Assembly (NCBI GenBank): GCA_017467565.1
Contig: JAFUSV010000105.1
Coordinates: 1 to 37,031, forward strand
Origin: Prevotella sp.
GTDB taxonomy: Bacteria; Bacteroidota; Bacteroidia; Bacteroidales; Bacteroidaceae
Length of the DNA stretch: 37,031 bases
Direction: 5' to 3'
A program made the position numbers and the translations under genes. The notes beneath the pieces were generated by a model. The model saw only the letters and a list, made by a program, of their open reading frames with translations. It did not search any database and was not told the DNA's origin. Of this stretch, positions 30,306-36,696 are shown piece by piece (the stretch's first letter is position 1; every line of letters starts with the position of its first letter).

Positions 30306-30998
30306 TTATTTATTGTTTGGAATACCTTTCTTTATAAAATCAAATAATCCATCCCCCAGTTTTGTTCTTTTATATAGATATACATTCTCTGGGTTTCTTA
30401 CCATACGATTTCCTCCTCTCCAATGGCTGTCATAATAATCTTTGGCACTTAATTTCTCTGCTAAACCTAATGACTCTAAATCCCATAGTTGTGCCCTAAT
30501 ATCCTCATTGTCAGCATAAGTCTTATTTTCACTTATTTTTTTTACGATAGAATCTTCTCTGGAGTGTTTTTCCAAGATTTTGAGAATTCCGATTCCCAAA
30601 TAGTCGAGTTGCTCTATTTTTCGCAAATAGATTTGTTTTCGAGACCAATCTTTATTGCCTGGATGGCAACATGCGGTAACATATGATGCATATAAATCTC
30701 TTTTTTTTGAAATCATCTCGTCTTTTGCAAGCTGAATTGTTTGCATTAGGTCTTTCTTTATCACAGGTTCCTCCACAAATAACTTTCCAAGCACAATTTC
30801 ATTTAGCCATTCCAAATGTTCCAATAATTTCTGTAGAAAATCTACGACATTATTATATTGAAGAGCATTTTGATAGTCAAAATAAAGATTTGCCCCAATC
30901 CCCAAAACAGGATGCTGACCATTAGCGACAATTTTTACAATGCTTTCAAGCAAGAATTTTAGTTTTGATGTTTTCTCTAATTCGTTCTCCATATTCAT
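30306..30998 (-). CDS. Unrecognised protein, last gene of the defence operon
   Basis: 230 residues, mostly helical by composition, Lys/Glu-rich and AT-rich in codons. I do not recognise the family. The N-terminus (ENELEKTSKLKFLLESIVKI) and middle (KKDLMQTIQLAKDEMISKKRDLYASYVTACCHPGN) look like helical bundles. The C-terminal third (EDIRAQLWDLESLGLAEKL and RTKLGDGLFDFIKKG) resembles a winged-helix module, which would suit a sensor or DNA/RNA-binding partner. Start and upstream stop share one base (TAATG), so translation is coupled to the GIY-YIG gene. Inference: accessory subunit of the operon's system. Confidence 0.75.
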   Translation of the reverse strand: MNMENELEKTSKLKFLLESIVKIVANGQHPVLGIGANLYFDYQNALQYNNVVDFLQKLLEHLEWLNEIVLGKLFVEEPVIKKDLMQTIQLAKDEMISKKRDLYASYVTACCHPGNKDWSRKQIYLRKIEQLDYLGIGILKILEKHSREDSIVKKISENKTYADNEDIRAQLWDLESLGLAEKLSAKDYYDSHWRGGNRMVRNPENVYLYKRTKLGDGLFDFIKKGIPNNK

Positions 30999-31627
30999 TA
31001 TTCTTCAAACGGATATGTTTCGTCGTAAATGTCGCTTAGTAGTTTCTCTTTGTAGAGCCAGTGAGCACCAGGGGCAATGTGCTTGACCTTGTAGCCTTTC
31101 AACTTGGCAGAGAGTGAACTGATAGAAGTTTCCTCGCCCTCGTAGCTTATTCTCCGTTCCGATACAATCGTAACGGTTATCGTTGGGTCGTCTTTCCATT
31201 GCAGTACATCACCCTTTTGCATTCCCATTTCGTAGAAGTTGAGCGGTGGACGATGAATCTGAGCCTTTGCCGATGCAGCCTTATCGTCATCAGTCAAGTC
31301 ACTTTCTATTTCGTCGCTCACTTCTTCCGTTACGTCGGTATGGTGGAATAGTTCAAGAATGGCCTTGGCCTGTTCCACTTGTATGCGGAAAAATTCACGG
31401 TTGGTATTGATGCGCTGCGGTGCAAATGCCGTATGCAGGGCTTTCTCAATCTTGGCGCAGTCGCCTTTCTTTACCTTGCAAGCAAACTGGCACTCAAAGG
31501 GAACAGGAACGCCTGTTGTATAGAGTTCCTTCATCCTCTTGTCTATATCTTCCTGTGTCGTCATGCCAATCTTCACAAGGCCTGGCATTACAGGGTTAGT
31601 TAAAAGATAAACTATTCCGTATTCCAT
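30998..31627 (-). CDS. GIY-YIG (T5orf172-type) protein with DUF4357-like C-terminus
   Basis: 209 residues. Residues 1-95 match the T5orf172 subgroup of GIY-YIG nucleases: GIVYLLTNP, MPGLVKIGMT, then Arg in DKRMKEL, VPFECQFACKV, an EKALHTAFAPQR helix and NREFFRI. The first signature motif reads GIV and the second KIG, as is common in this subgroup, so activity is likely but not certain. Residues about 130-209 begin PPLNFYEMGMQKGDVLQW, like DUF4357, often next to restriction enzymes. It starts 2 bp after the ApeA-like gene. Confidence 0.85.
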   Translation of the reverse strand: MEYGIVYLLTNPVMPGLVKIGMTTQEDIDKRMKELYTTGVPVPFECQFACKVKKGDCAKIEKALHTAFAPQRINTNREFFRIQVEQAKAILELFHHTDVTEEVSDEIESDLTDDDKAASAKAQIHRPPLNFYEMGMQKGDVLQWKDDPTITVTIVSERRISYEGEETSISSLSAKLKGYKVKHIAPGAHWLYKEKLLSDIYDETYPFEE

Positions 31628-31629
31628 AA

Positions 31630-32982
31630 TTATTCTTTTATAGTTTCAAATAGATTGCTATTTTTAATAGTTTCAGAATTGCTGTTATTGAGAATCTCAT
31701 TAATTTGAGAATGCTCGAAACCAGAAAGGGACAATATACAACAAATAAGAAGAACTCTTAACTTGCATGTTATTTTATATAGTCCTACTCCATCTGCAGC
31801 TTTTGGCTTACTTGTTTTAGGCATAAGATGTGAGTAATATATTCGTGTATCAACAATAATGTCTAAATCATACTTAATCTGTGACAATAAAACAATATCC
31901 GAGAACTCCGTTATTAATTCTTGAAGAATGGGATACAAATCTGAACTTGATTTACCAGATAGATTATGCTTCTTTCTCCATTTATTATTTCTAAACCTTC
32001 TATAAAAACCTTCAACGGCTTGGATTACAATTAGAAAATCTACACTACTATATGTACCCTTTCTTTCTAGACTCTTTATCAGATGTAATCTAATCTGTTC
32101 TATATCTTTATTCTCATTATACCATTTTTTTATAATCTCTGAATATTGTTCTTTAACAGCCTGGTATGTGAAAAGGAAATCATATGATTGAATATCCATA
32201 AGATCATGACTCTTTCTGTCTGCCGTCAAAAAGATTAATTCAATAGGCGTGTAAATAGTGTGACCAAATAATTGCTCATATACTTTATTGTCGTACAGTG
32301 TTATTTTCGAATTATAAACGACTCCTAGAGTTGATAAAGACAAGAACTGCTCAAATAATATGATGTCAGATAACAAATCTTCAATTGATGATTCTTCTGT
32401 CTTATCAATTTCGAGATATGTGTATTGCCTTAATGCCTGCGTTAGTTGAATATCTGATTTATAGATAACATTCCTTTTGAGAACAATAGATGTATGAGGA
32501 TTGATAGATACTTTTGCAATTGTATTGAATTCGTCATTTAATTGAACATGATAGGAAATGTTTTTTTGTATTGGAATACCATTAATGATTTCATTTTTCT
32601 CTTCAATTGCATCAGGATAACACCAATGTGATAAAGCAGGAATTAGTATAGTTGCCTTATACTGACATTTTTCGTCTAATCCAGAGGAATGTTTGCCGAT
32701 TATGAATAATCGCGTTTCATATCGAATTATTGGGAATGTCGAATTTGAGGCATTCTCATAATTTGTCTGCATTGACTGAAATAATGTTATATCTTTTGCA
32801 TCCGAAGTTATTCCATATATTATTTCATATACTTTACCACATTTCTCTAACGCCTCATCTGATGATTCTTCAAAACTTCCTATTAACTCTAAAAAAGCAT
32901 CACGGCCTTTAGTATAAGTAAGTATTCCAGCCACCTTCTTTTGGGGATTCGATGGCAAAAACCAATATCCTTTATATTCCAT
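31630..32982 (-). CDS. ApeA-like HEPN-domain antiphage protein
   Basis: 450 residues from ATG 32982, 7 bp after the stop of the restriction-modification gene (the frame extends upstream to 33030, inside that gene, but MEYKGYWFLPSNPQKKVAG is the usual ApeA N-terminus). The N-terminal half is the ApeA N-terminal domain; the C-terminal half is an Apea-like HEPN domain with FLIVIQAVEGFYRR and the R-x4-H ribonuclease motif in DTRIYYSHLMP near residue 379. In E. coli, ApeA is an abortive-infection protein. The gene is strikingly AT-rich compared with its upstream neighbour, a sign of recent acquisition. Confidence 0.85.
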   Translation of the reverse strand: MEYKGYWFLPSNPQKKVAGILTYTKGRDAFLELIGSFEESSDEALEKCGKVYEIIYGITSDAKDITLFQSMQTNYENASNSTFPIIRYETRLFIIGKHSSGLDEKCQYKATILIPALSHWCYPDAIEEKNEIINGIPIQKNISYHVQLNDEFNTIAKVSINPHTSIVLKRNVIYKSDIQLTQALRQYTYLEIDKTEESSIEDLLSDIILFEQFLSLSTLGVVYNSKITLYDNKVYEQLFGHTIYTPIELIFLTADRKSHDLMDIQSYDFLFTYQAVKEQYSEIIKKWYNENKDIEQIRLHLIKSLERKGTYSSVDFLIVIQAVEGFYRRFRNNKWRKKHNLSGKSSSDLYPILQELITEFSDIVLLSQIKYDLDIIVDTRIYYSHLMPKTSKPKAADGVGLYKITCKLRVLLICCILSLSGFEHSQINEILNNSNSETIKNSNLFETIKE

Positions 32983-32989
32983 TATTTCA

Positions 32990-35758
32990 TTACTTTGTTT
33001 TTTCCTTATACAGTTTAAACAACTCAGCAACGCACTGGCTTTCTGTAAAGGTGGACTTAACAGGGAAACCGTAGGCCTGCATCACGGCACGGTCATTATT
33101 TTGATGTGCAGTTAACAGCTCGGGATAGAGATACATGTTTTCGCCATACATATCGGCAAGACTCTTGTCTGGATAGAGTTTTCTGGCCTCAATGATTGCT
33201 TTCGCCGTTTGCTCAATCCTTTGCTTCTGTTCTTCCGTAGGTGATGGCATTGGGAAGTTATAGTAAACAGATGGCGCATAACGATAACGGTTTTCTAATC
33301 GCCCCGCGACAACTCGCATCCATGCATTATGGACATTGGAACAGATAATGCCAAAGTCAACAAGTGAAGCATTATATACGAGAACAGCAGAATCACTAGC
33401 AATCACATTTGGTGGTAAGAATCCAACAGGGATATAGCGGCGATTCTCAGATGACACACGAGGAATAAGCAAATAGTCTGTTTCGGGCTGTCTGTTCTGT
33501 GTAAAGAGGTATGGCTTATTTGCAGTTTTTTGAATCCTATCTACAGGACTATTCATACGATACTCACTTATATAGCGGAATCGTTCTGTTAGCTCTGGAA
33601 TATGTGCATAGTCGGCTGGTCGTTTACCAACAAGCCATAGGCAATAGCGAGTATATTCAGTATCATTGATAAACTCACGACTGCCAACAAAGGGCAATAG
33701 TACATCTTCAAGTTCGGGATAACGTTTGATAAGTTCTTCACGTTCTGCCTTACTGAACAACAAACGGCCATCGTCTGCTGGGGGACTTCCTTGTACGACT
33801 TTTGCCAATCCCTCATTGATACTCTTACTCCTGTTCTTAATAAAGACATCTGGAGCTGCTTTTAGGTAACCGTTTATATGCTCAACTATTTCGTATTTAT
33901 CACCATTGAAAAGCTGTTTTTCTTTCCGTTCTTTAAACGAGAAGCCGACAATAACGCAAGAGACACCCGCCGTTGACTTTGCTTCACTCGTCCACTTAAA
34001 GGTATTATGTGCAAAGTTAATGTAAAGGCAGTTGCTAAGTAGTTTCTGCCAAAACAGGTTAACAGACTCACCCTGACAAATGGAATTTGAAGAAACGAAT
34101 GCGGCTTCGGCATCAGTACCTTCAATTAAGTCCGAGGCTTTCTTAAACCATCCAGCCACATAATCCAGTTTGCCATAGTCCTTAGATGGGGCAAAGACTT
34201 CTTTCAAATCTTCAGTTTGCTCTTTTGTTCGCATTGCTTGACCAACAAACGGAGGATTCCCTACGATGAAGTTTAGCTTCTCCTTCGGAACTACACTTTG
34301 CCAATCAACACGAAGGGCATTACCCTCCACAATGTTGGTATATGACTTCAATGGCAAGAAATCAATATCACGCTTGATTATCTTTTCTGTCTCACGAAGC
34401 ATTTGAGCCTCTGAAATCCATAGGGCCGTTGTGGCTACGGTGACAGCAAAGTCGTTGATCTCTATACCATAAAACTGCTGAATGTTTACTTTGACTGGGG
34501 TCACTTCCTCAAAGCCGAGGAATGCCTGGCCGTGATAACGCTCACGGATGCACTCATTCTTCAAACGACGGAGTGAAAGATAAGTCTCGGTAAGGAAGTT
34601 GCCAGAGCCACACGCTGGGTCGAGGAAAGTCAGCGAGGCCAGACGGTCTTGGAAAGCATCGAGTTTTTTCTGCCGTTGCCGCTCTACTTTTTCTTCCAGT
34701 ATCTCGTCCAATTCACGGCGCAAGTCATTCAAGAAAAGCGGGTCGATGACTTTATGTATGTTCTCGATTGAAGTGTAGTGCATACCACCGCTCCGACGTG
34801 TCTCAGGATTAAGCGTGCTCTCAAACACCGCTCCAAAGATAGTTGGCGATATTTCCGACCAATCAAAGTCAAGGCTGGCATTCTGTAAAAGAGCAGCCCT
34901 AAGTTCTTCGGTGAACTGAGGGATTTCTATTTCTTCTTCAAATAATCCGCCATTGGTATAAGGAAAAGCTTTCAAATCGTCTTTCAGGTATTTACTACGC
35001 TTCTCTGGCGGTGTGTTCAATACTTCAAAAAGGTCACGCAAAGCACGACGCATGTCCTCGGCCTCATAGCGAACAAGGAAATCGTGGAACTGTTCATGTG
35101 TAAAGATTCCTGCGTCCTCGGCATAAAGACAGAACACGATGCGGACACATAGGATATTGAGCCAACGAAGTGCTTCTGGGCTGTTATCATCATACTGCTC
35201 CAAAAGAGCTCCATAAATCTTGCCTACTATCTCACCAGCCTCCTTTGACACCTTTATTTCCTTGCTAAGATGTTCGTTCTTGGCATCAACAAGGAACATT
35301 AAGCGGTAATACTCTTTACCCAAATTCTCCAAAAGAATCTGCTCAGGTTCACTGTTGGGTTGCTCCATGTCATAAACCAGGAACTCGGAGAAGTTGCAAG
35401 TAACAATCCAACGAGGATGTTCAGAAACCGGAAGCGATACCACATAGCGGCGAGCCTGTTGGAACGGATTAAGCAATGAGCCGTCACTTTGACGGATGCC
35501 AGCACGCAAATCCTTTCCCAACGATTTCTGCTCTATCAGAACTTTGGTGGAACGGATGCGGCCATCTATAAAGTTGGAGGCATCTACCATTCGATGGTCT
35601 TCAAAAGTGATAAAGCCATCCGATGGTGTTTCAATGCCAAAGACATTTGTAAGCAAGTCAATCCAGAAGGGTTGTGACTCCCCCCTCTCATATCCTCTGC
35701 CTTTCCACCGCTCTGCAAATTCAGCTGCAGCCATAGCCATTTGTTTTTCTGTTTTCAT
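32990..35758 (-). CDS. MmeI-like (type IIL) fused restriction-modification enzyme
   Basis: 922 residues, the normal length for type IIL enzymes. Order: N-terminal nuclease domain with D65 and E76-x-K78 (VLIEQKS), matching the D...ExK of MmeI; a helical spacer (about 160-330); the methyltransferase with DPACGSGNFLTETY (SAM binding, about 385) and NPPF (catalytic, N6-adenine type, about 510); then a target-recognition region and a C-terminal helical end. One protein therefore both cleaves and methylates DNA. All key motifs are present. It leads a four-gene operon, with a -7 promoter element and a palindrome overlapping the promoter region. Confidence 0.92.
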   Translation of the reverse strand: MKTEKQMAMAAAEFAERWKGRGYERGESQPFWIDLLTNVFGIETPSDGFITFEDHRMVDASNFIDGRIRSTKVLIEQKSLGKDLRAGIRQSDGSLLNPFQQARRYVVSLPVSEHPRWIVTCNFSEFLVYDMEQPNSEPEQILLENLGKEYYRLMFLVDAKNEHLSKEIKVSKEAGEIVGKIYGALLEQYDDNSPEALRWLNILCVRIVFCLYAEDAGIFTHEQFHDFLVRYEAEDMRRALRDLFEVLNTPPEKRSKYLKDDLKAFPYTNGGLFEEEIEIPQFTEELRAALLQNASLDFDWSEISPTIFGAVFESTLNPETRRSGGMHYTSIENIHKVIDPLFLNDLRRELDEILEEKVERQRQKKLDAFQDRLASLTFLDPACGSGNFLTETYLSLRRLKNECIRERYHGQAFLGFEEVTPVKVNIQQFYGIEINDFAVTVATTALWISEAQMLRETEKIIKRDIDFLPLKSYTNIVEGNALRVDWQSVVPKEKLNFIVGNPPFVGQAMRTKEQTEDLKEVFAPSKDYGKLDYVAGWFKKASDLIEGTDAEAAFVSSNSICQGESVNLFWQKLLSNCLYINFAHNTFKWTSEAKSTAGVSCVIVGFSFKERKEKQLFNGDKYEIVEHINGYLKAAPDVFIKNRSKSINEGLAKVVQGSPPADDGRLLFSKAEREELIKRYPELEDVLLPFVGSREFINDTEYTRYCLWLVGKRPADYAHIPELTERFRYISEYRMNSPVDRIQKTANKPYLFTQNRQPETDYLLIPRVSSENRRYIPVGFLPPNVIASDSAVLVYNASLVDFGIICSNVHNAWMRVVAGRLENRYRYAPSVYYNFPMPSPTEEQKQRIEQTAKAIIEARKLYPDKSLADMYGENMYLYPELLTAHQNNDRAVMQAYGFPVKSTFTESQCVAELFKLYKEKTK

Positions 35759-35789
35759 ATCGCTTGCTTTCGATTTCCAAATATGGGTA

Positions 35790-35797
35790 CAAAGTTA
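35790..35797 (-). promoter_or_regulatory. -7 promoter element of the defence operon
   Basis: TAACTTTG on the minus strand (35797-35790), 32 nt upstream of the restriction-modification ATG. The -33 position reads GACC, not TTTG, so it may need an activator or be weak. Confidence 0.6.
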
Positions 35798-35814
35798 CTC
35801 AATTTTATTGAGTA
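35796..35814. promoter_or_regulatory. Palindromic operator candidate in the defence-operon promoter
   Basis: TACTCAAT-TTT-ATTGAGTA: perfect 8-bp arms around 3 bp, lying between the -33 and -7 positions and sharing TA with the -7 box. A regulator bound here would block polymerase. A second palindrome, TAAGTACTTA, is at 35871-35880. Confidence 0.6.
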
Positions 35815-36038: not shown

Positions 36039-36446
36039 CTATACTGTTACTACCCTCATTTCGTTTGCCAGTCGATGAAGACCTTGTGCAATCTTTTGGG
36101 CTTGCTTAGGTCGTGGCTTACTGATACCTGATGCGTAGTGAGCAAGCTGCTTTTGGTTGATGCCAGTAATGGTCTCCAAGGCCGAGAAGGAAAAAATGCC
36201 CCTGTAGAATTCGAGTAGTGACTGAACGTTAAACTTGTAGACGATTTCATATTCATCGTCAAAGACTGCTGGATACTCGTCCCCGTCTTCTTTTGCGCAG
36301 TCTACATAAAAATTAATACTATCTTCGACTTCCTTTTTGAACTGCTCAAAGTCGCCTGAGCATGCGACTACCCATCCAGGAAGAAGGTCGCAAGCGCAGC
36401 TATACCCGTTTTCGGTACGTGCGGTGTTCATAATTACAGTTTTCAT
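36039..36446 (-). CDS. hicB: HicB-type antitoxin with C-terminal helix-turn-helix
   Basis: 135 residues. The N-terminal half (GYSCACDLLPGWVVACSGDFEQFKKEVEDSINFYV in pattern) is the partly degraded RNase H-like fold of HicB that blocks HicA; the C-terminal half (LETITGINQKQLAHYASGISKP) is an XRE-type DNA-binding domain that would repress its own operon. It follows hicA by 52 bp on the same strand, the usual order. A strong terminator lies behind it. Confidence 0.88.
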   Translation of the reverse strand: MKTVIMNTARTENGYSCACDLLPGWVVACSGDFEQFKKEVEDSINFYVDCAKEDGDEYPAVFDDEYEIVYKFNVQSLLEFYRGIFSFSALETITGINQKQLAHYASGISKPRPKQAQKIAQGLHRLANEMRVVTV

Positions 36447-36498
36447 AAATGTAATATTGTGTGTAGCTTTTTTTCTTTTGTAGTAGCAAAGGAGTTCG

Positions 36499-36696
36499 TT
36501 AAAACTTCAACCCCGATTGCTCCTCAATGCTTTTCAGAAGATCGCCGTATACGTCGTCATTTCCAGTGCCATTGATTGTCACTTTTCCAGGTTTAGTGGG
36601 GTGAACAAACTGGGCGTGGCTTCCAACCTGATGCTTGAGGATCCATCCGTCATCTTTCAATGCCTTCAGAATCTTTCTTGCTTTAATTACTTTCAT
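36499..36696 (-). CDS. hicA: HicA-type mRNA interferase toxin
   Basis: 65 residues from ATG 36696, fixed by the promoter at 36757-36726 and the family start MKVIKARKILKAL; the upstream in-frame part up to 36756 overlaps the promoter. The dsRNA-binding-like fold has the catalytic His in QVGSHAQFVHPTK and the expected GKVTI strand. It stops translation by cutting mRNA when HicB is lost. Confidence 0.9.
   Translation of the reverse strand: MKVIKARKILKALKDDGWILKHQVGSHAQFVHPTKPGKVTINGTGNDDVYGDLLKSIEEQSGLKF

Follow-up and report, generated by a model that had tools for sequence, protein, structure and literature searches.

Introduction

Restriction-modification (R-M) operons that also carry RNase or toxin genes have been described previously. 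Here we compare with them four genes lying in series on the minus strand of a Prevotella sp. contig (GenBank assembly GCA_017467565.1, contig JAFUSV010000105.1); the whole stretch analyzed, 37,031 nucleotides long, is referred to as the window. In gene order, P0001 to P0004 are predicted to encode an MmeI-type restriction-and-methylation enzyme, an ApeA-like protein with a HEPN RNase domain, a GIY-YIG nuclease, and a protein without a known family. ApeA genes are embedded in R-M operons of epsilonproteobacteria, and a link to R-M systems is described for at least 16 HEPN clades; in 2013 it was proposed that HEPN RNases, including ApeA, form a second defence line behind the host R-M operon, comparable to PrrC-PrrI (PMC3710099). 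Experiments have been carried out on a type I R-M operon that contains a DarTG2 toxin-antitoxin module (PMC12255303). The conserved DnmA-YeeB-YeeC cluster consists of genes for an MmeI-like methylase without a nuclease motif, a helicase, and a T5orf172/GIY-YIG protein (PMC9973331). ApeA genes within R-M operons, a back-up role of HEPN proteins for R-M, and clusters joining MmeI-like and T5orf172 genes are all already in print.

P0001 resembles MmeI (PMC4833311; structure 5hr4) over its full length and in the named nuclease and methylase catalytic residues, but it is followed by three more genes. As in DnmA-YeeB-YeeC (PMC9973331), an MmeI-like enzyme is clustered with a T5orf172/GIY-YIG gene; however, DnmA lacks the nuclease motif and is followed by a helicase gene, whereas in the window the ApeA-like gene stands between the MmeI-like and T5orf172 genes. 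The T5orf172 domain is C-terminal in YeeC and N-terminal in P0003, and neither ApeA nor P0004 is named for that cluster. The R-M-linked ApeA genes share with P0002 the ApeA_NTD1 and HEPN domains, the place in a restriction operon, and the proposed role as a second line, but the table in that paper is epsilonproteobacterial, whereas the window holds a type IIL operon of the Prevotella lineage (PMC3710099). PrrC-PrrI (PMC3710099) and DarTG2 (PMC12255303) likewise have an RNase or toxin gene inside an R-M operon, but their R-M hosts are type I, their toxins are other ones, and regulation or protection was tested in them. The literature searched, which covered few subscription journals, contained no account of the foursome or of PDC-S57 together with many R-M types. 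An earlier sequence-only reading of this DNA suggested that the composite may be undescribed; its idea of two layers, DNA cleavage followed by RNA cleavage, had been proposed in 2013 (PMC3710099). PDC-S57 and PDC-S58, the PADLOC families matched by P0003 and P0002, appear there as candidate defence genes with no stated mechanism, and a text search for PDC-S57 returned no paper.

Type IIL enzymes of the MmeI kind place N6-methyladenine on one strand and cut about 20 nucleotides away, and ApeA has abortive anti-phage activity. In guarding of the PrrC type, the RNase is silenced by the R-M enzyme and released on its inhibition.

Results and Discussion

The four genes and their promoter

We tentatively regard the locus as a modular R-M operon: it would begin with a self-contained restriction enzyme, carry defence genes that can be exchanged in its middle part, and end with a portable GIY-YIG gene and its small partner P0004. 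This reading is based on features apparent from the DNA itself, namely, the gene order, the tight spacing, the conserved catalytic residues, the palindrome at the promoter, the recurrence of the GIY-YIG gene beside many restriction types, and an apparent exchange of the middle of the operon at a related locus, L094 (L numbers denote our loci). It is further supported by the nearest ApeA homologue, which is located within a type I operon, and by published parallels (PrrC-PrrI, DarTG2, and DnmA-YeeB-YeeC).

In the list of open reading frames (ORFs) of the window, the four ORFs span 35758-30306 on the minus strand, and all of them are open. The intergenic spacers, in order from P0001 to P0004, are 7, 2, and -1 bp, in agreement with the layout given by the sequence-only reading, and we infer that the genes are co-transcribed as a regulated operon. 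The guanine-plus-cytosine (GC) content is 44.2% for P0001, 30.7% for P0002, 46.0% for P0003, and 33.0% for P0004, compared to 53.6% for window positions 1-29890. The mixed base composition noted earlier, with the ApeA-like and last genes rich in AT, was thus confirmed. These values suggest that the four genes differ in their histories.

P0001 (32990-35758, minus strand; 922 amino acids [aa]) is, to judge by its sequence, a complete, full-length MmeI-type type IIL enzyme, as had been predicted. It contains all five Pfam MmeI domains (residues 9-921; MmeI_Mtase, 9.8e-90), matches PDB MmeI 5hr4 across residues 8-921 (E of 1.2e-184), and scores 1094 bits with the PADLOC type IIG model. The nuclease, helical, methylase, target recognition, and C-terminal domains are present in a single polypeptide. 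The catalytic residues of MmeI are D70/E80/K82 for the nuclease and NPPF, H314, and W570 for the methylase (PMC4833311), and P0001 has the counterparts D65/E76/K78, NPPF 501-504, H327, and W589.

The ApeA-like identity of P0002 (31630-32982, minus strand; 450 aa) also held. Pfam matches to ApeA_NTD1 (1.5e-34) and HEPN_Apea (2.8e-13) are accompanied by an Rx4H motif in the HEPN domain (RIYYSH, residues 380-385), so that P0002 combines the ApeA N-terminal domain with a HEPN domain carrying Rx4-6H, and the match to PDC-S58 is 3.1e-55. P0003 (30998-31627, minus strand; 209 aa) matches T5orf172 (6e-19), MUG113 (6.7e-17), and PDC-S57 (2.7e-79). In 22 aligned sequences, Y7, K19, G21, R31, E61, H65, R77, and E78 are invariant, and the Tyr, Arg, and Glu of the T5orf172 GIY-YIG core are present as Y7, R31, and E78. 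The GIY-YIG half of the earlier label is therefore sound; its other half, DUF4357, had been given by eye and found no hidden Markov model (HMM) match even at E<=10, in a search where matches weaker than roughly 0.1 are mostly removed by the filters of HMMER. According to the alignment, the family has a C-terminal part in common, and the HMM search found no further DNA-binding domain in P0003. The last gene, P0004 (30306-30998, minus strand; 230 aa), belongs to no Pfam, NCBIfam, or PADLOC family. Membership of a known family was rejected, as there was nothing beyond a single weak PHROG match (E of 0.003), in keeping with the earlier label of an unknown protein. A solved relative was rejected as well; the best candidate, a mitochondrial pentatricopeptide-repeat-type protein, had an E of 0.016.

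An exact 17-bp palindrome, ACTCAAT-AAA-ATTGAGT (35797-35813, minus strand), is a candidate operator; it is identical in L094 and abuts TAACTTTG (35790-35797, minus strand), which lies 39 bp before the mmeI ATG. The Bacteroidota -7 consensus is TAnnTTTG, and we take TAACTTTG, which matches it, to be a -7 element. The window contains 32 TAnnTTTG motifs on both strands, which makes this match weak evidence by itself. At two or fewer mismatches, the palindrome pattern, picked for this control after the palindrome had been noticed, is expected 0.17 times per shuffled window and was present in 15 of 100 shuffles. Palindrome and -7 element together occur a single time in the genome and are inside a 31-bp block identical in L094, where the surrounding sequence is less conserved. 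For 14 MmeI relatives, the half-site ACTCAAT was not found within 150 bp upstream of the gene, and some of these (L075, L076, and L083) have other palindromes, with 7- to 8-bp arms and no chance control, near their own TAnnTTTG. The palindrome is a likely, if putative, operator of the operon. A shared regulated promoter, which the sequence-only reading had placed before the genes, is plausible: the palindrome, the -7 element, and the identity in L094 support it rather than prove it, and its regulation stays presumptive.

Apparent exchange of the core at L094 and recurrence of the GIY-YIG gene

At L094, in another genome, the promoter and the first 38 mmeI codons are retained (100% amino acid identity; 84.7% DNA identity over 249 bp including the promoter). 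Homology is regained 2 bp ahead of the GIY-YIG start and continues to the end of P0004 (91.7% DNA identity over 1325 bp), with protein identities of 95% for GIY-YIG and 92% for P0004. The core (L094 516-5109) encodes an AAA_15 ATPase (PD-T4-4_A-like), an unknown protein of 196 aa, an EcoRI_methylase (an adenine methylase of the EcoRI type), a GmrSD_N-HNH nuclease (PADLOC REase_II), and an unknown protein of 113 aa. We infer that the L094 promoter once had mmeI behind it, probably ahead of this GIY-YIG-P0004 pair, and that the core has since been exchanged. A restriction operon whose core is wholly changed while promoter and tail are kept would illustrate concretely how composite defence operons come about; taken only as a foursome that stands alone, the finding is a modest one. 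On another contig of the same genome (L104 9402-10105), a hicAB-like pair, named by eye, is directly followed by an mmeI 3' stub, which matches the final 37 residues of the MmeI-type protein at 65%. This stub may be a second scar of mmeI loss in that genome.

P0004 directly follows the GIY-YIG gene in four of four loci, the window, L094, L095, and L096; in the last two, the contig begins within the GIY-YIG gene, with the upstream genes outside view, and the P0004 copy of L096 is broken. The identity of P0004 to the copies in two other genomes is 92% and 88%. Among 393 genomes of the same order, two had a P0004 match (E<=1e-3), the genome of origin and one other, and the latter match (E of 8e-4), inside an ORF of >1100 aa with DUF4175, was taken as chance. 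A pattern-limited scan of a collection that, by its own description, holds one genome per species for 84,980 species, and that may omit records very near the window's genome, found three close P0004 relatives, all recorded as Prevotella or Prevotellaceae. In these three genomes P0002 was not found, and P0001 was represented only by the 38-codon stub plus weak or partial matches. Plasmids, phages, and viral contigs yielded no P0004. A 230-aa gene after GIY-YIG in L135 was considered as a P0004 and rejected, as it is not P0004-like. An HNH-type gene follows P0004 in L095 (900-1439), with, by eye, a shortened relative in L094 (6451-6735); such an ORF after P0004 is not in the ORF list of the window.

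P0003 homologues occur in 22 of the 393 order genomes (E<=1e-10; the genome of origin is included in this and the following genome counts). In an unblinded count, a restriction or modification gene was present within 3 kb in 18 of 30 loci with a recognised homologue, and 17 of the 18 have it on the same strand as the homologue; L073 (an unrecognised fragment), L128, L131, L095, L096, and the window itself were omitted. The neighbours are of many types: type I R-M (L063, L065, L066, L102, L110, L123, L124, L126, and the decayed L113), type III-like (L064, L068, and L112 [methylase plus ResIII-HNH protein]), type ISP (L103), an Eco57I-like methylase (L122), EcoRI-type plus GmrSD (L094), GmrSD (L062 and L069), and a divergent BsuBI/PstI (L129). 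At distances of more than 6 kb from the homologue, restriction or modification genes account for 6341 of the 118538 gene bases of these loci, and the background comprised 11 N6_Mtase matches in 6 genomes. Viral contigs gave a cleaner sample than the 30 loci; the split by matched length was made before neighbours were counted. Here, a restriction gene lies within 3 kb in 5 of 12 loci with full-length family members, compared to 3 of 43 loci that match the GIY-YIG part only (Fisher p of 0.0087, or 0.0041 with a duplicate counted once; L133 and L134, the same places as L102 and L103, were omitted).

Some of these loci deserve separate description. L123, L124, and L126 carry a diverged GIY-YIG subfamily with 27-28% identity to P0003, located between HsdR and HsdM and not at the operon end. 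L068 (3184-10328) is a type III R-M operon with AAA_21 and DUF4276 (PADLOC HEC-01B) genes between Mod and Res and a terminal GIY-YIG gene. A Schlafen AlbA_2 plus GIY-YIG pair is present in L060, from a genome of the same family, and in L127, from a Phocaeicola plasmid record; the Schlafen proteins of the two loci are 90% identical and their GIY-YIG proteins share 204 of 209 residues, which suggests a recent transfer.

ApeA homologues, found in 4 of the 393 order genomes (E<=1e-5), have R-M genes nearby in 4 of 9 loci, a count that retains L115 although only one of its sides is visible and omits L081, on a contig of 3.3 kb, and L114, in which the threshold used recovered no homologue. The closest relative, in L079, lies between hsdS and hsdR of a type I operon. 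The L080 homologue is between hsdS- and hsdR-related genes on the opposite strand, that of L117 comes immediately after a DNA methylase gene, and that of L118 is three genes from hsdM on the opposite strand. In L079 (3852-15329), the type I operon has four inserted genes, namely, PIN_8, ApeA-like, AAA_15, and PD-T4-4_B-like.

Weighing of the explanations

If the modular reading is correct, the MmeI-type enzyme would methylate host sites and cut unmethylated incoming DNA. The ApeA-like HEPN RNase would be silent until restriction is blocked or overwhelmed and would then cleave cellular RNA, halting phage growth. The GIY-YIG nuclease may attack DNA that escapes the restriction enzyme or remains after its action, possibly under the guidance or restraint of P0004. 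A sequence of DNA cutting followed by RNA cutting is a fair hypothesis with a published precedent, for which the gene order is the only support here. Nothing in this analysis shows cooperation between the four genes, and their independent action is almost as likely. The interpretation in the sequence-only reading is thus partly supported.

Several results weigh against the modular reading. P0001 homologues occur in 52 of the 393 order genomes (E<=1e-100), and no P0002-P0004 homologue was found in any of 14 fetched loci of MmeI relatives, 12 of which have >2.6 kb visible downstream (L078 shows nothing and L085 just 663 bases there), nor in L190. P0001 and P0003 matches at the above thresholds share a genome in 4 of 393 cases, the genome of origin (G000), G078, G151, and G315; they are neighbours only in the first and lie on different contigs in the others. 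When P0001 to P0004 were compared by tblastn with 190 loci, all or most of the four were found only in loci of the genome of origin, and two or more outside it only in L094 (the same place as L105), L095, and L096. The exact foursome is absent from the other loci searched, and the four-gene operon as a recurring system was rejected for these data; the search for the gene order proposed by the sequence-only reading found the exact four together only here, an outcome that this reading had named as refuting its proposal. No R-M gene was found in 5 of the 9 ApeA loci (L115, L116, L119, L120, and the plasmid locus L130), and no restriction gene was detected within 3 kb in 7 of the 12 full-length viral-contig loci or in 12 of the 30 P0003-homologue loci. 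The latter include Schlafen-AlbA neighbours (L060 and L127), a reverse transcriptase (L125), and an HsdR-related gene just past 3 kb (L072); the rest have no recognisable partner gene. The count of 18 in 30 is itself to be read with caution, as neighbours for Pfam were picked with the loci in view, the reference set includes proteins from some counted loci, and loci are partly non-independent (L123/L124/L126 are related; L064/L065 and L110/L113 share a genome). DnmA-YeeB-YeeC gave no phage protection in B. subtilis tests, though deletion of the Vibrio dnmA and yeeB homologues increased sensitivity to some phages (PMC9973331). Recurrence is found for parts of the composite and not for the exact four: GIY-YIG with P0004, the mmeI 5' end at the L094 promoter upstream of that pair, GIY-YIG with restriction genes, and ApeA near R-M genes are each seen again.

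It is quite possible that the locus is a miniature defence island, in which separate, self-sufficient defence genes stand behind one promoter and do not cooperate. MmeI-type enzymes and ApeA are able to act alone, GC varies by gene, and P0001, P0002, and P0003 each have relatives elsewhere that lack the others. An island of unconnected genes fits less well with the GIY-YIG-P0004 pair, which was kept together in all four loci, and with the restriction adjacency of GIY-YIG, which exceeds that of the domain-only control. An improbable alternative is that the GIY-YIG gene, of the T5orf172 type, is selfish, encodes a homing-type endonuclease, and drives the exchange of neighbouring defence cassettes, with P0004 riding along. 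Phage T5orf172 genes have been described as homing endonucleases, in work concerned with nuclease genes at genetic exchange boundaries (PMC10448857), the replaced core of L094 ends 2 bp before the GIY-YIG start, and homologues are also present in viral contigs in which no restriction gene was found (e.g., L137-L139). However, phage homing genes cluster by essential phage genes (PMC10448857), whereas the P0003 subfamily is often by restriction genes and, when so linked, nearly always on their strand; the shared C-terminal part and the lack of a further DNA-binding domain found in P0003 also argue against homing. Least probable is a decaying relic in which selection acts only on methylation activity or on a hicAB addiction function. 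The truncated mmeI of L094, the mmeI 3' tail behind the hicAB-like pair of L104, the broken P0004 of L096, and L113, where GIY-YIG and HsdR are both broken, would fit decay, but the open window ORFs, the named catalytic residues kept in MmeI, HEPN, and GIY-YIG, and the conservation of P0004 in two other genomes do not.

A bolder version of the modular reading, which we consider rather unlikely, is that the PDC-S57 GIY-YIG protein is a general DNA-directed helper nuclease for unrelated restriction types (I, IIL, III, ISP, and EcoRI-type), with P0004 as its lineage-specific adaptor and the three nucleases coupled such that, when one is inhibited, the phage faces the next. If a terminal GIY-YIG does help many restriction types, a single small protein would connect systems so far regarded as distinct, and a gene now listed merely as a defence candidate would obtain a function.

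Other features of the window

Scans of the window for sigma-70 promoters (15 promoter-like sites compared to 16.2 in shuffles) and terminators (7 terminator-like sites compared to 4.4) were uninformative, repeats flanking the operon gave no convincing element ends, and a tRNA search of the window found none. A hicA plus hicB-like pair (36039-36696), which we do not count as part of the operon, lies immediately upstream of it, in the same orientation and 280 bp from mmeI. It consists of a HicA toxin gene (36499-36696, minus strand; HicA_toxin, 1.1e-15) and a candidate HicB-like antitoxin gene (36039-36446, minus strand), whose HTH_3 match (0.0032) is below the cut-off and which was named from the adjoining HicA. 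The pair is a possible source of a regulator or a possible addiction module.

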